Origin: an uncultured Synechococcaceae cyanobacterium
Lineage (GTDB): Bacteria; Cyanobacteriota; Cyanobacteriia; PCC-6307; Cyanobiaceae
Direction of reading: 5' to 3'
Assembly (NCBI GenBank): GCA_902573335.1
Contig: CACGJI010000002.1
Span: forward strand, 1-45,946
Length of the DNA stretch: 45,946 bases
Made by a program: the position numbers and the translations under genes. Below the pieces are notes generated by a model. That model saw only the letters and a list, made by a program, of their open reading frames with translations, had not been told where the DNA came from and did not search any database. Shown in pieces: positions 1 to 9,197 of this stretch (position 1 is the stretch's first letter; every line of letters begins with the position of its first letter).

Positions 1-1733
1 TGGAGTGGTTCCAAGATATTGAGTCTATGCTTAATCACCATATAGCTGGTTTAGTAGGGCTAGGATCTTTAGCATGGGCTGGCCATTGTATTCATATCGG
101 AGCTCCTACTGCAGCTCTCTTAGATGCAATTGATGCAGGCTCTCCTTTAGTTATTAATGGCAAAGAAATAGCAACTATTGCAGATATGCCTATGCCGCAT
201 CAACTCTGCGATCCACAAATTATCGGTCAGATATTTCCAGGATTAGCAAGTGGTACAGGCAATTTCTTTAGTTTAAATTGGTTAGCCTTCTCAGACTTTC
301 TTACTTTCAAAGGTGGACTTAACCCTGTGACAGGAAGCTTGTGGATGACTGATGTTTCACATCATCATTTAGCTTTTGGTGTAATAGCTATAATCGGTGG
401 TCATATGTATAGAACCAATTATGGTATTGGTCATAGTATGAAAGAAATATTAGATTCACAACAAGGAGATCCAATATTATTCCCTGCTCCTAAAGGTCAT
501 CAAGGTCTTTTTGAGTTCATGGCAGAAAGTAGACATGCTCAGCTATCAGTAAACCTAGCGATGCTTGGATCAATAAGCATACTTGTATCTCATCATATGT
601 ATGCGATGCCTCCATATCCATATATAGCTACTGATTACATGACAGTTCTTGGATTATTTACCCATCACATGTGGATAGGTGGATTATTCATAGTAGGAGC
701 AGGCGCGCATGCTGGAATTGCAATGGTTAGAGATTATGATCCAGCAAAACATATTGATAACGTATTAGACAGAATCCTTAAAGCAAGAGACGCCTTAATC
801 AGTCACTTGAACTGGGTATGTATGTGGTTAGGATTCCATAGTTTCGGACTATATATTCACAACGATACTATGAGAGCTTTGGGTAGACCCCAAGATATGT
901 TTAGTGATTCTGCAATCCAACTTCAACCAATATTTGCTCAATGGGTTCAAAGCATTCAAGCTTCAGCTGTTGGTACTTCTATATTGGCTGGTACGGCAGA
1001 AGCTTTACCTCATAAAGCTATAAGTGAAGTATTTAATGGAAGTTTAGTTGAAGTAGGTGGAAAGGTTGCTATCGCTCCAATCCCCTTAGGAACTGCTGAT
1101 TTAATGATTCATCATATCCATGCATTCCAAATACACGTAACAGTTTTAATTCTTCTTAAAGGTGTTCTTTATGCAAGAAGCTCAAGATTGATACCTGATA
1201 AAGCATCATTAGGATTTAGATTTCCATGTGATGGTCCTGGCAGAGGAGGTACATGTCAAGTTTCTTCTTGGGATCATGTTTTCTTAGCACTCTTCTGGAT
1301 GTATAACTGCTTATCAATTGTTATTTTCCATTTTTCTTGGAAGATGCAAAGTGATGTTTGGGGACTAACTGGAGGTAACTTCGCTCAAAGTGCCATTACC
1401 ATTAATGGTTGGCTTAGAGACTTTTTATGGGCGCAAGCTTCTCAGGTTTTGACCAGTTATGGTTCAGCTATAAGTATGTATGGTTTGATGTTCTTAGGAG
1501 CACACTTTATCTGGGCATTTAGCTTAATGTTCTTATTCAGCGGTAGAGGTTACTGGCAAGAGCTGTTTGAGTCAATTGTTTGGGCTCATAACAAACTTAA
1601 AGTTGCTCCAACAATTCAACCAAGAGCACTATCAATTACTCAAGGTCGTGCGGTTGGTGTTACTCACTTCTTAGTAGGCGGTATCGCGACTACTTGGGCC
1701 TTCTTCCACGCTCGCCTTTTCGGCCTGGGCTAA
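1..1733 (+). CDS. psaA: Photosystem I P700 apoprotein A1 (PsaA), 5' end outside window
   Basis: Large reaction-centre subunit of photosystem I. With PsaB it binds P700, the core chlorophylls and the shared 4Fe-4S cluster FX in the thylakoid membrane. The reading frame is open to the left edge: codons before the ORF-track Met read EWFQDIES, as in PsaA, so the gene continues upstream and Met at 27 is internal. About 576 residues of a roughly 760-770 residue protein are present. The FX loop [12 protein letters not shown] is intact, and the His-rich membrane helices are present (for example [10 protein letters not shown]). psaB follows after 27 bases, so the two form the usual psaAB operon. Its G+C looks higher than that of the neighbouring non-photosynthetic genes, as expected for highly expressed genes here. 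Confidence 0.98.
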
Positions 1734-1760
1734 TTACCTGAACTTCACCTTTTTAATTCA

Positions 1761-3989
1761 ATGGCAACAAAATTTCCATCATTTAACCAGGGTCTAGCTC
1801 AGGACCCTACAACCCGACGAATATGGTACGGAATAGCTACTGCTCACGACTTTGAAAGTCATGACGGTATGACCGAAGAAAAGCTTTATCAGAAGCTTTT
1901 CTCTACACATTTTGGTCATCTAGCAATAATCGCCCTCTGGGTGGCTGGAAACTTATTTCATATTGCTTGGCAAGGTAACTTCGAGCAATTTGTACTTGAT
2001 CCAACCCACGTACGTCCTATTGCTCATGCTATTTGGGATCCTCATTTCGGATCTGGTATCACAGAAGCAATGACACAAGCTGGAGCTAGTGGTCCAGTAA
2101 ACATAGCTTACTCAGGTCTCTATCATTGGTGGTACACAATTGGAATGAGAACTAATGAGCAACTCTTCCAAGCTTCAATATTCATGAGTATTTTGGCTTG
2201 TTGGACTCTATTTGCAGGTTGGTTACATTTACAGCCAAAATTCAGACCTTCTTTAGCGTGGTTTAAAAATGCAGAGTCAAGATTAAATCATCACTTAGCA
2301 GTCTTATTTGGTTTTAGTAGTATTGCTTGGACAGGTCATTTAGTTCATGTTGCTATACCTGAATCAAGAGGACAGCATGTAGGTTGGGATAATTGGTTAA
2401 CAGTCCTTCCACACCCTGCAGGATTAGCTCCTTTCTTTACTTTAAACTGGGGAGCATATGCTCAAAATCCTGATTCTCTAGACCAAGTATTTGGAACAGC
2501 TGAGGGAGCTGGAACAGCAATCTTTACTTTCTTAGGTGGTCTACATCCTCAAAGTGAAGCATTATGGCTTACTGATATTGCGCATCATCATATTGCGATT
2601 GGAACAGTTTTTGTAATTGCTGGTCATATGTATAGAAATACTTTTGGTATTGGTCATAGCCTCAAAGAAATTACAGAAGCTCATAATACAAGACACCCTA
2701 ATGATCCTCATAAAGGTAGTTTCGGAATTAATCATGATGGAATTTACGAAACTGTAAATAATTCACTACATTTCCAACTTGGACTAGCATTAGCATCACT
2801 TGGTGTAGCAACTTCTCTTGTAGCGCAACATATGGGTGCACTTCCTTCTTACGCTTTTATTGCCAGGGACTACACTACACAATCTGCTTTATATAGTCAT
2901 CATCAGTACATAGCAATGTTCTTGATGGTTGGTGCATTTGCACACGGAGCTATTTTCTTTGTAAGAGATTATGATCCTGAATTAAATAAAGATAATGTAT
3001 TAGCAAGAGTTCTTGGAACAAAGGAAGCTTTGATAAGTCACCTTAGTTGGGTAACTATGTTGCTAGGATTCCACACTCTTGGAATTTATGTTCATAACGA
3101 CGTTGTTGTAGCTTTTGGTAACCCTGAAAAGCAAATTCTAATTGAGCCAGTATTTGCTCAATTCGTTCAAGCCGCTCAAGGTAAGATGATGTACGGCTTT
3201 AACGCTTTATTATCTGATCCTACAAGTTCAGCAAGTCTCGCTGCTAATTCATTACCAGGTAATCATTACTGGATGGATCTTATTAATAGACAAGATGCAT
3301 TAAGTGCTTTCTTACCTATCGGTCCTGCAGATTTCTTAGTCCACCATGCTATCGCTTTAGGTCTTCATACAACTGCTTTAATCCTTATTAAAGGTGCACT
3401 AGATGCTAGAGGAACTAAATTAATTCCTGATAAGAAAGATTTAGGATATGCATTCCCTTGCGATGGTCCCGGACGTGGAGGTACTTGTGATAGTTCATCT
3501 TGGGACGCCATGTACTTAGCTATGTTCTGGGCATTAAATTTAATAGCATGGGTAACTTTCTACTGGCATTGGAAACACCTAGCAATATGGCAGGGTAATG
3601 TTGCGCAATTTAATGAATCAGGAACTTATCTAATGGGTTGGTTCAGAGATTATCTCTGGTTAAATTCTGCTCAACTTATTAACGGATATAATCCATTCGG
3701 AGTTAACTCTTTATCTCCTTGGGCCTGGATGTTCCTATTCGGTCACTTAGTTTGGGCTACTGGTTTTATGTTCTTAATATCATGGCGTGGTTACTGGCAA
3801 GAATTAATTGAAACATTAGTTTGGGCACATCAGCGTACTCCAATAGCTAACCTTGTTGGCTGGAGAGATAAGCCAGTTGCACTTTCAATTGTTCAAGCTA
3901 GATTAGTTGGACTTGCACATTTCACGATTGGAAACATACTTACATTTGGTGCATTTGTTATCGCATCAACTTCAGGTAAGTTTGGTTAA
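1761..3989 (+). CDS. psaB: Photosystem I P700 apoprotein A2 (PsaB)
   Basis: Second large subunit of the photosystem I heterodimer, providing half of the P700 special pair and half of the FX ligands. At 742 residues it is full length. It starts [12 protein letters not shown], as in other cyanobacteria, and carries the FX loop [12 protein letters not shown] near residue 560 plus many paired His residues in predicted membrane helices. It ends ASTSGKFG. It is the second gene of psaAB, with a strong intrinsic terminator 19 bases after the stop, so the transcript probably ends here and the following glycosyltransferase is separate. Nothing looks truncated or shifted. Confidence 0.99.
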
Positions 3990-4007
3990 ATTTTCCATAA
4001 ATAATTT

Positions 4008-4036
4008 AAATCACCACGTTTGTGGTGATTTTTTTT
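4008..4036 (+). terminator. Intrinsic terminator of psaAB
   Basis: Perfect inverted repeat ATCACCAC / GTGGTGAT around a GTTT loop, extended by two A-T pairs and followed by a run of eight T. It lies 19 bases after the psaB stop. It is one of only two strong hairpin-plus-T-tract terminators I can see in the window. Confidence 0.93.
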
Positions 4037-4092
4037 GTTTAATTTTAGTGTTCTAAATTAAGTTAAAATTATATAATTATTATTAAATATAA

Positions 4093-5055
4093 ATGTCAGA
4101 TATTAAACAATTAATTTCTATTATCGTCCCTGTTTTCAATGAAAGTGAGAGTATTGGTTTTTTATTGGATGAAGTTATAAATGTAATGTCATTTCATAAA
4201 TATAATTTTGAATTGATTGTTGTAAATGATGGTTCTAAAGATAATACTCATCAAGTTTTAAAGCAACTAACTCTCAAAATTAAAGAATTGTCAGTAATTT
4301 CCCTTCGCAAAAATTATGGTCAAACTGCAGCAATGTCAGCTGGCTTTGATAATTCTAAGGGTGATATTGTTATTACTTTGGATGGTGATTTACAGAATGA
4401 TCCAAATGATATTCCTTTATTAATTTCAGAAATAAATAAAGGTTATGATTTGGTTTGTGGTTGGAGGTTTGATAGAAAAGATAAATTAATCAATAGAAAG
4501 ATACCATCAAAAATAGCGAATAAGTTAATAGCTAACGTTACAGGTTTGAAGTTGCATGACTATGGTTGCTCATTAAAGGCGTTTAAGAAAGAAATAATAG
4601 AAGATATAAAGTTATATGGGGAACTTCATAGGTTTTTGCCTGTTTTAGCAAATATTGAAGGTGCAAGAATTAAAGAAATTAAAGTAAATCATAGGAGCAG
4701 GCAATATGGATCTAGTAAATATGGAATTGATAGAACTTTTAGAGTTTTAATGGATTTACTAACTGTTTGGTTTATGACTAAATTTTTAACAAGACCGATG
4801 TATGGATTTGGTTTTGTTGGAATTATAAGTATTTTCTTTAGCCTTGCGATAAGTTCTTATTTGATAGTTTTAAAAATAATGGGAGAGGATATTGGAAATC
4901 GTCCGTTGCTGATGTTTGCATTAATATTAGGAATTGCTGGTGTTCAATTATTTAGCTTTGGATTATTGAGCGAACTTTTAATTAGGACATATCATGAAAG
5001 TCAAAGTCGTCCAATTTACAGAATTAGATCAATAAACAGTGCTAAGCAAAATTGA
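4093..5055 (+). CDS. Family 2 glycosyltransferase, polyprenyl-phosphate (GtrB/DPM1-like)
   Basis: The 320-residue protein has an N-terminal GT-A domain (about residues 9-170) opening ISIIVPVFNESESI. Nucleotide-sugar and metal-binding motifs are visible: VVNDGSKDNT and the DxD-type TLDGDLQNDP. The C-terminus holds two hydrophobic segments (about 235-257 and 270-295). This layout matches GtrB, YfdH and dolichol-phosphate mannose synthase-like enzymes that load a sugar onto undecaprenyl phosphate at the inner membrane. Such enzymes feed surface glycan or lipopolysaccharide decoration; the sugar cannot be told from sequence. It is separated from psaB by a terminator and converges with the next gene, with four bases between the stops. 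Family call is firm, substrate unknown. Confidence 0.88.
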   Translation: MSDIKQLISIIVPVFNESESIGFLLDEVINVMSFHKYNFELIVVNDGSKDNTHQVLKQLTLKIKELSVISLRKNYGQTAAMSAGFDNSKGDIVITLDGDLQNDPNDIPLLISEINKGYDLVCGWRFDRKDKLINRKIPSKIANKLIANVTGLKLHDYGCSLKAFKKEIIEDIKLYGELHRFLPVLANIEGARIKEIKVNHRSRQYGSSKYGIDRTFRVLMDLLTVWFMTKFLTRPMYGFGFVGIISIFFSLAISSYLIVLKIMGEDIGNRPLLMFALILGIAGVQLFSFGLLSELLIRTYHESQSRPIYRIRSINSAKQN

Positions 5056-6349: not shown

Positions 6350-7108
6350 TTAACGTATAGTGCGGTCCCATCTATAATTTCTAACTACTCTTCCTGCCGA
6401 AATTAGTTTAGATTTATAATGCAATGAGATTTTATCATTAGACTTTTTTAGGGTATCTAATCCTATTCCATTTCTGCCAAAATCCATTCCAGAGCTATGG
6501 TAATAGAATCCGTCTCCTTTGTAGATTCCAATATGATCACATTTTTTTTCATTTCCAAAAAATAAAAGATCGCCAGGTCTTAAAGCCGTATACGATTCTT
6601 TGTAATCAAAAAGGTGCTTACAAAAACTTTTTATTTGAAAAGAGTCTCGAGGTATATAAATTTGATGCTTGAAAAAAGCAGTCTGAATTAATCCAGAACA
6701 ATCAAAATTGGGTCCCAATGTACCTCCCCAAAGATATTCATTATTCAACTCAGATTGATCCTTGATCCATTTTAAGATTGAGTTAACTTTATCTTTTATA
6801 AAGAAGTGTTCATTTTCTAAACTGTTATTTTTTTTGAATTCGTATTTCTCAATAATTAATCCATCTAAATTTATCCAACAGACGTAACCATCTTCATATA
6901 GTTGAACTGGTATTCTTGAAAATTTATGGATGTTTTGGTAAATATTTGGATAAATAAGCCTAAAAATTCTATTTTTAAATATTTCAGTAACTAATTTATC
7001 TTCTGTTTCATTTTGATATCCCGAAATATTAACTTTTAATTGCCACCAAATAGTTTTTGAAAAATTAGTTTGTTTAAATAATGAGATAGGATTTTTATAA
7101 ATTTCCAT
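6350..7108 (-). CDS. NlpC/P60-family cysteine peptidase (peptidoglycan or peptide hydrolase)
   Basis: A 252-residue protein with an N-terminal region of about 110 residues (SH3b-like by position) and a C-terminal NlpC/P60 domain. The catalytic Cys is at residue 137 in NFDCSGL, the His at 192 in CDHIGIY, and a third polar residue probably at H204 in YYHSSG. WGGTLGPNFDCSG and LRPGDLLFF are typical of family C40, which cleaves gamma-D-glutamyl links in cell-wall peptides. No signal peptide is visible, so it may act on cytoplasmic muropeptides or be exported by another route. It is divergent from a serine hydrolase, with only three bases between the two annotated starts. Confidence 0.9.
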   Translation of the reverse strand: MEIYKNPISLFKQTNFSKTIWWQLKVNISGYQNETEDKLVTEIFKNRIFRLIYPNIYQNIHKFSRIPVQLYEDGYVCWINLDGLIIEKYEFKKNNSLENEHFFIKDKVNSILKWIKDQSELNNEYLWGGTLGPNFDCSGLIQTAFFKHQIYIPRDSFQIKSFCKHLFDYKESYTALRPGDLLFFGNEKKCDHIGIYKGDGFYYHSSGMDFGRNGIGLDTLKKSNDKISLHYKSKLISAGRVVRNYRWDRTIR

Positions 7109-7111
7109 ACA

Positions 7112-8020
7112 ATGTCCTTTTACTATTTAAGTCAGGAGATGGGTCTAGCCTTAAATGATATTTTAAGGAAAGTATGCTCTCATAATAAAGATTTTTCAAG
7201 AGAAGATATTTCGATAACTTGGATTAATTATAAAAGTGAAAATAAAAGTGTATTTAAAGGTTTTGGAACTGGCATTAATAACAAAAAAATGGTTTACCCT
7301 GCCAGCATAGTCAAGTTGGTTTATGGCCTTGCTGCATTTTATTGGATTAAAAAAGGAAGTTTATTATTATCAGATGAAATTATTGATGCTGTAAGAAAAA
7401 TGTTGTTTTTCTCCAGTAACAATGCAACAAGTTTTTTAATTGATTTAATTACTGGAACAACAAGTGGACCTTGTATTGAAGGCGAACTATGGGAAAATTG
7501 GAAATACCAAAGAAGTATAATAAATGATTGGCTAAATGATTTAAATTGGGAAGAATTGGTCGGTATAAATTGCTGTCAGAAGACCTGGGATGATGGACCA
7601 TTTGGTCGTGAGAAAGAATTTTATGGAAAAGATAACAATAATAGAAACGCTATGAATTCTGATTCAGCTGCAAGGGTTTTGGAGGAAATTATGATTCATA
7701 TTGATTATCAAGAGAATGATTTAAATTTGCGAAGTTTTTTAAAAAGAAATTTAAATAAAGTTGTTCTTAAAAACGATTCTCTTAATCAAATAGATGGTTT
7801 TTTGGGCGAAGGATTACCAGAAAGCATTAATCTTTGGAGTAAAGCAGGTTTAATGTCTGAAGTTAGACATGACTCAGCTTGGTGGATTAATAATCAATCT
7901 CTACAAACTTTATTAGTAGTTTTTTGTAATGGAGAAAAATATTCCAAAGATTCTTCCCTTTTACCGTTTATAGCAAAAGAAGTATACGATTTTAATAAGA
8001 GATATACTATCGAGGACTAA
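7112..8020 (+). CDS. Serine hydrolase of the beta-lactamase/penicillin-binding fold
   Basis: A 302-residue protein showing the three class-A style motifs in order: SxxK as SIVK (Ser65, Lys68), SxN as SSN near residue 102, and a KTG-like KAG in LWSKAGLMSE. It therefore has the DD-peptidase/beta-lactamase fold with Ser65 as likely nucleophile. Substrate is unknown; D-Ala peptides or an esterase role are possible, and antibiotic resistance is not implied. There is no clear signal peptide. The ATG at 7112 leaves only three bases before the divergent NlpC gene, so the true start may be the in-frame ATG at 7139. The stop overlaps that of the next gene (opposite strand) by four bases. Confidence 0.82.
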   Translation: MSFYYLSQEMGLALNDILRKVCSHNKDFSREDISITWINYKSENKSVFKGFGTGINNKKMVYPASIVKLVYGLAAFYWIKKGSLLLSDEIIDAVRKMLFFSSNNATSFLIDLITGTTSGPCIEGELWENWKYQRSIINDWLNDLNWEELVGINCCQKTWDDGPFGREKEFYGKDNNNRNAMNSDSAARVLEEIMIHIDYQENDLNLRSFLKRNLNKVVLKNDSLNQIDGFLGEGLPESINLWSKAGLMSEVRHDSAWWINNQSLQTLLVVFCNGEKYSKDSSLLPFIAKEVYDFNKRYTIED

Positions 8021-8229
8021 AGTGAATCTTCTAAGAAATTGGAATCTAATTTGTCAGTATACGCTTCATAAGGTAGCATCATCACTTCTTCAAAATCTAA
8101 ATCGTTCATAATCCATTCTCTATATTCTGCTAACAAACTTTTTCTATCTTCATTATCTAATTCATAAATACGCAATGCGGTATCTTTAAAATTTTCTTTT
8201 ATTAAATTTTCAATTTCTTTCTTCATCAT
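8017..8229 (-). CDS. 70-aa acidic protein of unknown function downstream of recombinase-like gene
   Basis: Seventy residues, mostly helical and acidic, with no membrane segment and no Cys. It begins MMKKEIENLIKENF; the second Met may be the real start. I do not recognise a family. The gene starts one base after the stop of the recombinase-like gene on the same strand, so the two are probably cotranscribed and translationally coupled. It converges with the serine hydrolase, sharing the bases CTAA across the two stops. Function unknown. The clean frame and tight coupling argue that it is real. Confidence 0.65.
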   Translation of the reverse strand: MMKKEIENLIKENFKDTALRIYELDNEDRKSLLAEYREWIMNDLDFEEVMMLPYEAYTDKLDSNFLEDSL

Positions 8230-8230
8230 T

Positions 8231-8905
8231 TTATGTTAATTCTCCCTCCAAAATCACTCTCCTAATTGTTGATAATGCAATTCCAGTTTGTGTTCTGATT
8301 GATCGATATGAATTCCCTTCATTACGCAATCTGATTACTAAAGATTCTTTTAAAGGACTTATTTTGGGCCTGCCTCCCAAATTATTTCCTGATAATTTTC
8401 TGCGTAATAGTTGTTCTTTTTTTCTTTCACCTAAACTTTTGTCTTCTAAATTATCTAATTCATATAAAATCTTAAAAATTGAAGAATTTGCATTAGAAGA
8501 TTTATTAGCAGCAAAAAAACCAGTCAAAGTTCGCAATTGAATATCTTTATTAATAAGTTTATTTATTGTTATCAAACAGTCTTTTTTATTTTTAAATGCT
8601 CGATCAAGCTGAGTTATTATTAATTGATCGCCTTTTGATAAGGAATTTATAGCTTTATTGAGTTGGGGTTTGATTTCTTCATCTAAACTTATAAATTCAG
8701 AGAAAACTAAACTGCAACCCTCTTCCTTCAAAATTTTTATTTGCTCTTCTAAATATTCATATTCGTTATGAGTAGCCCTTGCATAACCTATTGCTTTAGA
8801 GTTTTTATTTTTTTCCGATAATAAAATACGTTTTCTTTTGAATTTAAAAGTCAATGTTTTATTACATATATTTTTTACTGTATCAAAAAATAATAAAAAA
8901 AACAC
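8231..8905 (-). CDS. Serine recombinase (resolvase/invertase) homologue with altered active site
   Basis: Residues 38-165 resemble the resolvase catalytic domain (IGYARAT, GDQLIITQLDRAFKN, a long helix E with LGERKKEQLL). Residues 175-224 form a Hin-type helix-turn-helix beginning LGGRPKISPL. Against gamma-delta resolvase from memory, Arg8 and Asp67-Arg68 are kept, but Ser10 is Thr (Thr45 here), Arg45 is Lys (Lys79) and Arg71 is Lys (Lys105). The DNA codon for the nucleophile position is ACT. It may be a DNA-binding protein without strand exchange, or a weakened enzyme. The first 30 residues look spurious; a TTG at 8854 is an alternative start. No inverted crossover sites or transposon ends were seen nearby. 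Confidence 0.8.
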   Translation of the reverse strand: MFFLLFFDTVKNICNKTLTFKFKRKRILLSEKNKNSKAIGYARATHNEYEYLEEQIKILKEEGCSLVFSEFISLDEEIKPQLNKAINSLSKGDQLIITQLDRAFKNKKDCLITINKLINKDIQLRTLTGFFAANKSSNANSSIFKILYELDNLEDKSLGERKKEQLLRRKLSGNNLGGRPKISPLKESLVIRLRNEGNSYRSIRTQTGIALSTIRRVILEGELT

Positions 8906-9197
8906 TTTTTAGTACAAAATAGTAAAGCTATGAACATTTTTGAAGCCATATTTTTGAAAGTAGTACGTTCTGATATCTGTATTAAAAATAACGTTATGAA
9001 ATCTGATTTAAATTTAGTTAATGGAACAAAAACGTTGTGTAACGAGTTAATTTAATTAAGATTTTCTAAACTGCAGAAGAATTAGTTGAATTCATTTATT
9101 TATTTACTTCTGTTGAATGAGCTTCATCTTTGAAATTATAAATAGTTAATTCATTTTGTTTTTAGTAAAATAAAATTACAGGTCAAGAATATTTAAT

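Follow-up and report, generated by a model that had tools for sequence, protein, structure and literature searches.

The window, that is, the whole analyzed stretch of 45,946 bp from an uncultured Synechococcaceae cyanobacterium (contig CACGJI010000002.1), contained at positions 8231–8905 of the minus strand an ORF encoding a serine recombinase homologue of the resolvase/invertase family. Its product matched the Resolvase N-terminal domain PF00239 (E-value = 1.7e-16, 61.1 bits against a curated cut-off of 23.3) and, among PDB sequences, those of a DNA invertase (4m6f), Sin and gamma-delta resolvase. An extended arm was followed by a C-terminal helix-turn-helix (HTH; from GGRPK to the end, 8234–8377, minus strand), which was recognized by sequence alignment and by a structural model that was confident in this part. 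The initial annotation had placed the start at the GTG at 8905, which is unlikely: many orthologues carried stops or frameshifts between this GTG and a conserved TTG at 8854, and a codon-like pattern of changes across orthologues was seen only from this TTG onward. For these two reasons, the gene probably starts at TTG 8854 and encodes a putatively catalytically dead small serine recombinase homologue of 207 aa (8231–8854, minus strand); the N-terminus extended from GTG 8905 was ruled out by the same stops and frameshifts. The MED4 orthologue is PMM1515, entered in a published table as 'Site-specific recombinase' at 1,457,449 (PMC7852597), and the PMM1515 primer sequence from that paper maps precisely to this coordinate within the orthologue carried by genome G015.

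The gene is a single-copy, fixed gene of the high-light group, transcribed divergently from lipA and followed downstream by a small ORF. The window belongs to a Prochlorococcus, as judged from its nearest relatives, whose strains (MED4, MIT 9314) are of the high-light clades. The order lipA, recombinase gene, orf70, beta-lactamase-like gene and NlpC gene was constant in the high-light loci examined. In the window, orf70 (8017–8229, minus strand) encodes an acidic protein of 70 aa and lies one base past the recombinase stop codon; it adjoined the gene in 80 of 80 flanked loci, with the one-base gap retained in most orthologues, and is a probable operon partner of the recombinase homologue. No transposase or element ends adjoined the gene in the loci examined, where its neighbors were lipA, orf70, the beta-lactamase-like and NlpC/P60 genes and psaL, and no inverted repeat pair resembling an invertible segment was found flanking it, in agreement with the initial annotation, which had described surroundings free of transposons and invertible segments. 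The gene was present in all sampled genomes of the genus with a completeness of at least 99%. Six less complete genomes did not contain it; five of them also lacked psaL and in one the contig ended inside the locus, so that assembly gaps explain the absence and gene loss was rejected.

Several further features were observed around the gene. The product of orf70 belongs to a small-protein family, also seen in L198–L203, with several paralogues of 30–48% identity per genome. A 32-nt direct repeat (81% identical; YELDN stretch) was shared by orf70 (8135–8166) and the recombinase gene (8433–8464); it was absent from the orf70 paralogues and was set aside as a probable chance similarity. The NlpC/P60 and beta-lactamase-like genes found beside the recombinase gene in high-light loci (6350–8020 in the window) possibly have cell-wall functions.

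Active-site residues are given in the numbering of gamma-delta resolvase. In the alignment to 4m6f, Thr stood under Ser10 (codon ACT, 8771–8773, minus strand), Lys under Arg45 (8669–8671, minus strand) and Lys under Arg71 (8591–8593, minus strand), with the D67-R68 pair kept; the gamma-delta resolvase alignment agreed and additionally revealed the replacement of R119 by Asp. Tyr6 and Arg8 were also retained in the window protein. The three substitutions read in the initial annotation, as well as the preservation of the DR pair and the HTH, were borne out. The orthologue set comprised 129 rows, in which some genomes appear twice, since two collections were searched. Across these rows, Arg8, Asp67, Arg68, Tyr6 and Glu124 were invariant, Lys45 was found in 129 of 129, position 71 held Lys, Ser or Ala with the exception of a single row, Ser and Ala being the residues of the other high-light clade, and Arg119 was replaced by Asp, Asn or Glu; Arg45 and Arg119 were therefore lost everywhere. 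Position 10 was Thr in 102 rows, Ile in 16, Ser in 9 and Ala in 2. It changed at least 10 times on a tree built without this codon and 9 times on a tree built with it, and it ranked within the 24 most rapidly evolving of the 138 columns of the catalytic domain, while the G-Y-A-R-A before it was unchanged throughout. Of the three residues that the initial annotation had proposed to check for invariance, Lys45 was constant and positions 10 and 71 were not, and its view that all changes are conservative does not hold, as Ile and Ala also occur at position 10 and Ser and Ala at position 71.

The whole sister clade (12 of 12) has Ile at position 10, as does a member that branches early within the clade of the window, and therefore Thr (ACT) may be derived from Ile (ATT/ATA) and not directly from Ser. 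Orthologues with Ser, which had been named beforehand as evidence against the reading of a recombinase altered at its nucleophile, do exist, though all nine of these rows retain Lys45, Lys71 and a residue other than Arg at position 119; judging from these residues, they are not restored enzymes. By the same alignment, Thr at position 10 is not a nucleophile under selection, a role ruled out by the Ile, Ala and Ser found at the same position, and the suggestion of a Thr-dependent enzyme was left unsupported by the variation at this position and its minimum of 9–10 changes on the tree.

The recombinase homologue is maintained by purifying selection, which is strongest in the HTH: dN/dS (Nei–Gojobori) was about 0.25 in the catalytic domain against 0.05–0.09 in the HTH. 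In the structure predicted with AlphaFold, the mean pLDDT was 57.6; the HTH was modeled with confidence (pLDDT of 85–92 over most of its length), while the catalytic domain was poorly modeled. Together with the loss of catalytic residues, the distribution of constraint supports the earlier suggestion of selection for DNA binding without cleavage.

Other genera of the family carried relatives of 36–45% identity at different loci, and the catalytic set YRS-R-DRR-ER was complete in most of them, unlike in the group of the window protein. The high-light clade formed a long branch nested among these catalytically intact relatives; it should be noted that the gene tree was a quick one with long branches, so that the exact placement of the clade is unsure. 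Between the window protein and the intact relative L148, identity was 34% for the catalytic domain and 71% for the HTH. Recombinase homologues also occupied a second fixed locus (panC-purM-orf214-recombinase-tRNA-Cys), where they ranged from intact (L144) to copies in which nearly all catalytic residues were lost (L161, L182, L183 and L185–L189). When compared with an intact relative, the degraded copies had 60–89% identity in the HTH and 23–42% in the catalytic domain. As far as can be read from these sequences, catalysis was lost and the HTH kept at two chromosomal positions. No relatives were found in viral contigs with either the gene or an intact relative as the query, and phage records yielded only distant invertases; a phage origin was rejected on these grounds.

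Other observations concern the relatives themselves. The genes panC/purM and/or tRNA-Cys/rnd were located near L138, L144, L161, L163, L164, L182, L183 and L185–L189, and tRNA-Cys and purM were close to many of the second-locus homologues, all of which keep the HTH. Short matches to the HTH only (67–72% identity) were detected at G074:C9:8378-8536, G144:C27:4677-4820 and G179:C32:8898-9044, in open frames of 63–119 aa that represent either remnants or stand-alone HTH proteins. The upstream part of the L148 locus (oriented 1–4213) contained two very long ORFs, similar to each other, within a repetitive stretch that resembles L178.

In the intact relatives, half-sites reading TGTTCCAAWAA or its reverse formed an array upstream of the gene that terminated just before the start codon; TGTTCCAA occurred in 20 of 40 of these upstream regions against 1 expected. 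A 12-position half-site matrix trained on the upstream regions of intact relatives only gave, at a threshold of 7 bits, 3.17 matches per region in 24 high-light operators, whereas shuffled regions gave 0.38 and column-permuted matrices 0.22, with none of 500 permutations reaching the observed value. For other dead copies, mostly those of the purM/tRNA-Cys locus, the value was 3.0 against 0.52. The positions of the half-sites were fixed across clades whose synonymous sites are near-saturated. In the window, the predicted operator half-sites were TGTATCAAAAAA (8879–8890, plus strand, 8.8 bits), TGTACTAAAAAG (8905–8916, minus strand, 11.5 bits) and TGTTCCATTAAC (9017–9028, minus strand, 13.9 bits), with the weaker predicted half-sites CGTTCTGATATC (4.4 bits) and TGTATTAAAAAT (5.2 bits) at 8966–8989 (plus strand), whose positions are conserved in orthologues. 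The half-site at 8879–8890 overlaps the TTGATA of a conserved promoter-like block, TTGATA-16 nt-TAATAA (8859–8886, minus strand), in which TTGATA resembles a −35 element; the block was identified by visual inspection and was missing from the output of a consensus promoter scan.

The best half-site cluster of the window lay upstream of the gene, as it did in a 10.5-kb MED4 stretch; of 67 longer loci, 49 had their highest-ranking cluster at the operator, the fixed coordinates used being wrong in some of the others. An inverted-pair pattern gave five matches in eight genomes, each upstream of this gene, and none in controls; three of the eight genomes had no exact match. Since this pattern had been shaped partly after the region was viewed, what counts is that it detected no sites elsewhere. 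No matches were obtained with a strict paired-site pattern or with one designed for the intact relatives; therefore, the geometry of the half-site pairs varies.

Taken together, these data suggest that the protein is probably a resolvase that has lost catalysis and persists as a DNA-binding autoregulator acting on an operator derived from a res site. According to this scheme, a small serine recombinase related to resolvases and invertases would have lost its catalytic residues and been kept for sequence-specific DNA binding, and the upstream array would be the remnant of the ancestral res site. The computations showed that catalytic residues were lost, that purifying selection is focused on the HTH, that the locus is fixed and that the half-site array was retained; from these results we infer that the protein would dimerize and that the dimers would bind through the conserved HTH to the TGTWYYAWWAA array between the gene and the divergent lipA. 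Binding would cover the gene's own promoter and, since a half-site lies over the −35-like TTGATA, would be repressive, limiting transcription of the recombinase–orf70 pair and possibly of lipA as well. The protein would thus have kept the second job of a resolvase, the control of its own gene, and lost the first, recombination. A regulatory role, which the initial annotation had held to be worth testing, is likewise supported as probable. The invariance of Arg8, Asp67 and Arg68 exceeds what an HTH would require simply to bind DNA and counts against the autoregulator reading; the kept Arg8 and Arg68 may still hold the DNA backbone. In active resolvases, these two residues contact the scissile phosphate (PMC4499144), and the S10A mutant of activated Tn3 resolvase still makes synaptic complexes on its site (PMC4499144). 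A literature search returned no expression, binding or footprint data for PMM1515 and no described catalytically dead small serine recombinase acting as a regulator, though further papers may exist.

Among the other explanations, that of an active recombinase using Thr as the nucleophile (Ser in some strains) and Lys for two catalytic arginines draws on the same five invariant residues and on Thr being the commonest state, with Ser also occurring. It is nevertheless highly improbable in view of Ile throughout the sister clade and in some members of the clade of the window, Ala in two rows, the repeated changes at position 10 and the universal loss of Arg45 and Arg119; moreover, neither a second copy of the paired sites nor a mobile unit was found. 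It is just as hard to regard the gene as decaying and on its way to being lost, even with a catalytic domain that evolves faster than the HTH: the orthologues examined had an open frame starting at the TTG, dN/dS was well under 1 in both domains, and the gene was present in all near-complete genomes sampled. The random decay with frameshifts that the initial annotation had named as contrary evidence was accordingly not what was observed.

Purifying selection on a catalytic domain that has lost its chemistry could instead indicate an architectural or nucleoid protein that binds at many places on the chromosome, or a role in RNA or protein binding, with the upstream array as a relic. This is unlikely, as the half-sites persist at fixed positions across the nearly saturated clades and the paired pattern occurred only at this gene in the eight genomes. 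Somewhat less credence still is given to a dead competitor that would occupy res-type sites of incoming elements carrying intact relatives and block their recombination, autoregulation serving only to control its expression. Intact relatives in other genera do share the recognition part and the half-site motif, but the gene's own operator already explains the shared motif, and searches of viral contigs with the gene and with an intact relative revealed no element of this kind. A more general proposal, namely, that chromosomal serine resolvases of marine picocyanobacteria have repeatedly been converted into cleavage-dead, res-recognizing autoregulators that also block the recombination of incoming elements, appears doubtful.

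Consequently, the catalytically dead autoregulator remains the preferred reading, and the retention of a dead recombinase by selection in every near-complete high-light genome sampled suggests that it is useful for something other than catalysis, in one of the most abundant photosynthetic organisms. Prochlorococcus has a streamlined genome with few regulators. The series from an intact resolvase with its res site to a dead protein with its operator makes the path from mobile-element enzyme to regulator directly testable. The annotation of PMM1515 and its orthologues as functional site-specific recombinases is unwarranted.

Among known systems, the Tn3/gamma-delta resolvase (TnpR) resembles the window protein in the homology of the catalytic domain, the C-terminal HTH and the half-site array that precedes its own gene, in the intergenic region of a divergent pair; by binding res, Tn3 resolvase autoregulates tnpR and the divergent tnpA (PMC7157771). 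The window protein differs from TnpR in the loss of Ser10, Arg45, Arg71 and Arg119, and its locus in having no transposase, a fixed chromosomal position and a single array. The D protein of the mini-F plasmid is likewise a resolvase that also represses transcription, as worded in the title of a reference in PMC7157771, and differs in being described as an active resolvase. The Gin/Hin-type DNA invertases and Sin (Tn552 Bin3) gave the best sequence matches among solved structures and have a GGRP-like arm before the HTH, whereas the window locus has no invertible segment and its protein an incomplete catalytic set. The intact picocyanobacterial relatives (for example, L148, L144 and L152) share about 40% identity overall and the same upstream half-site motif with the window protein, and differ in their full catalytic set and other loci. 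A parallel case is provided by transcription factors that arose from TnpB nucleases, in which the nuclease activity was lost and target binding was kept. Such RNA-guided proteins, described as transcription factors (PMC13418256), differ from the window protein in belonging to an unrelated family and in their RNA-guided mechanism.
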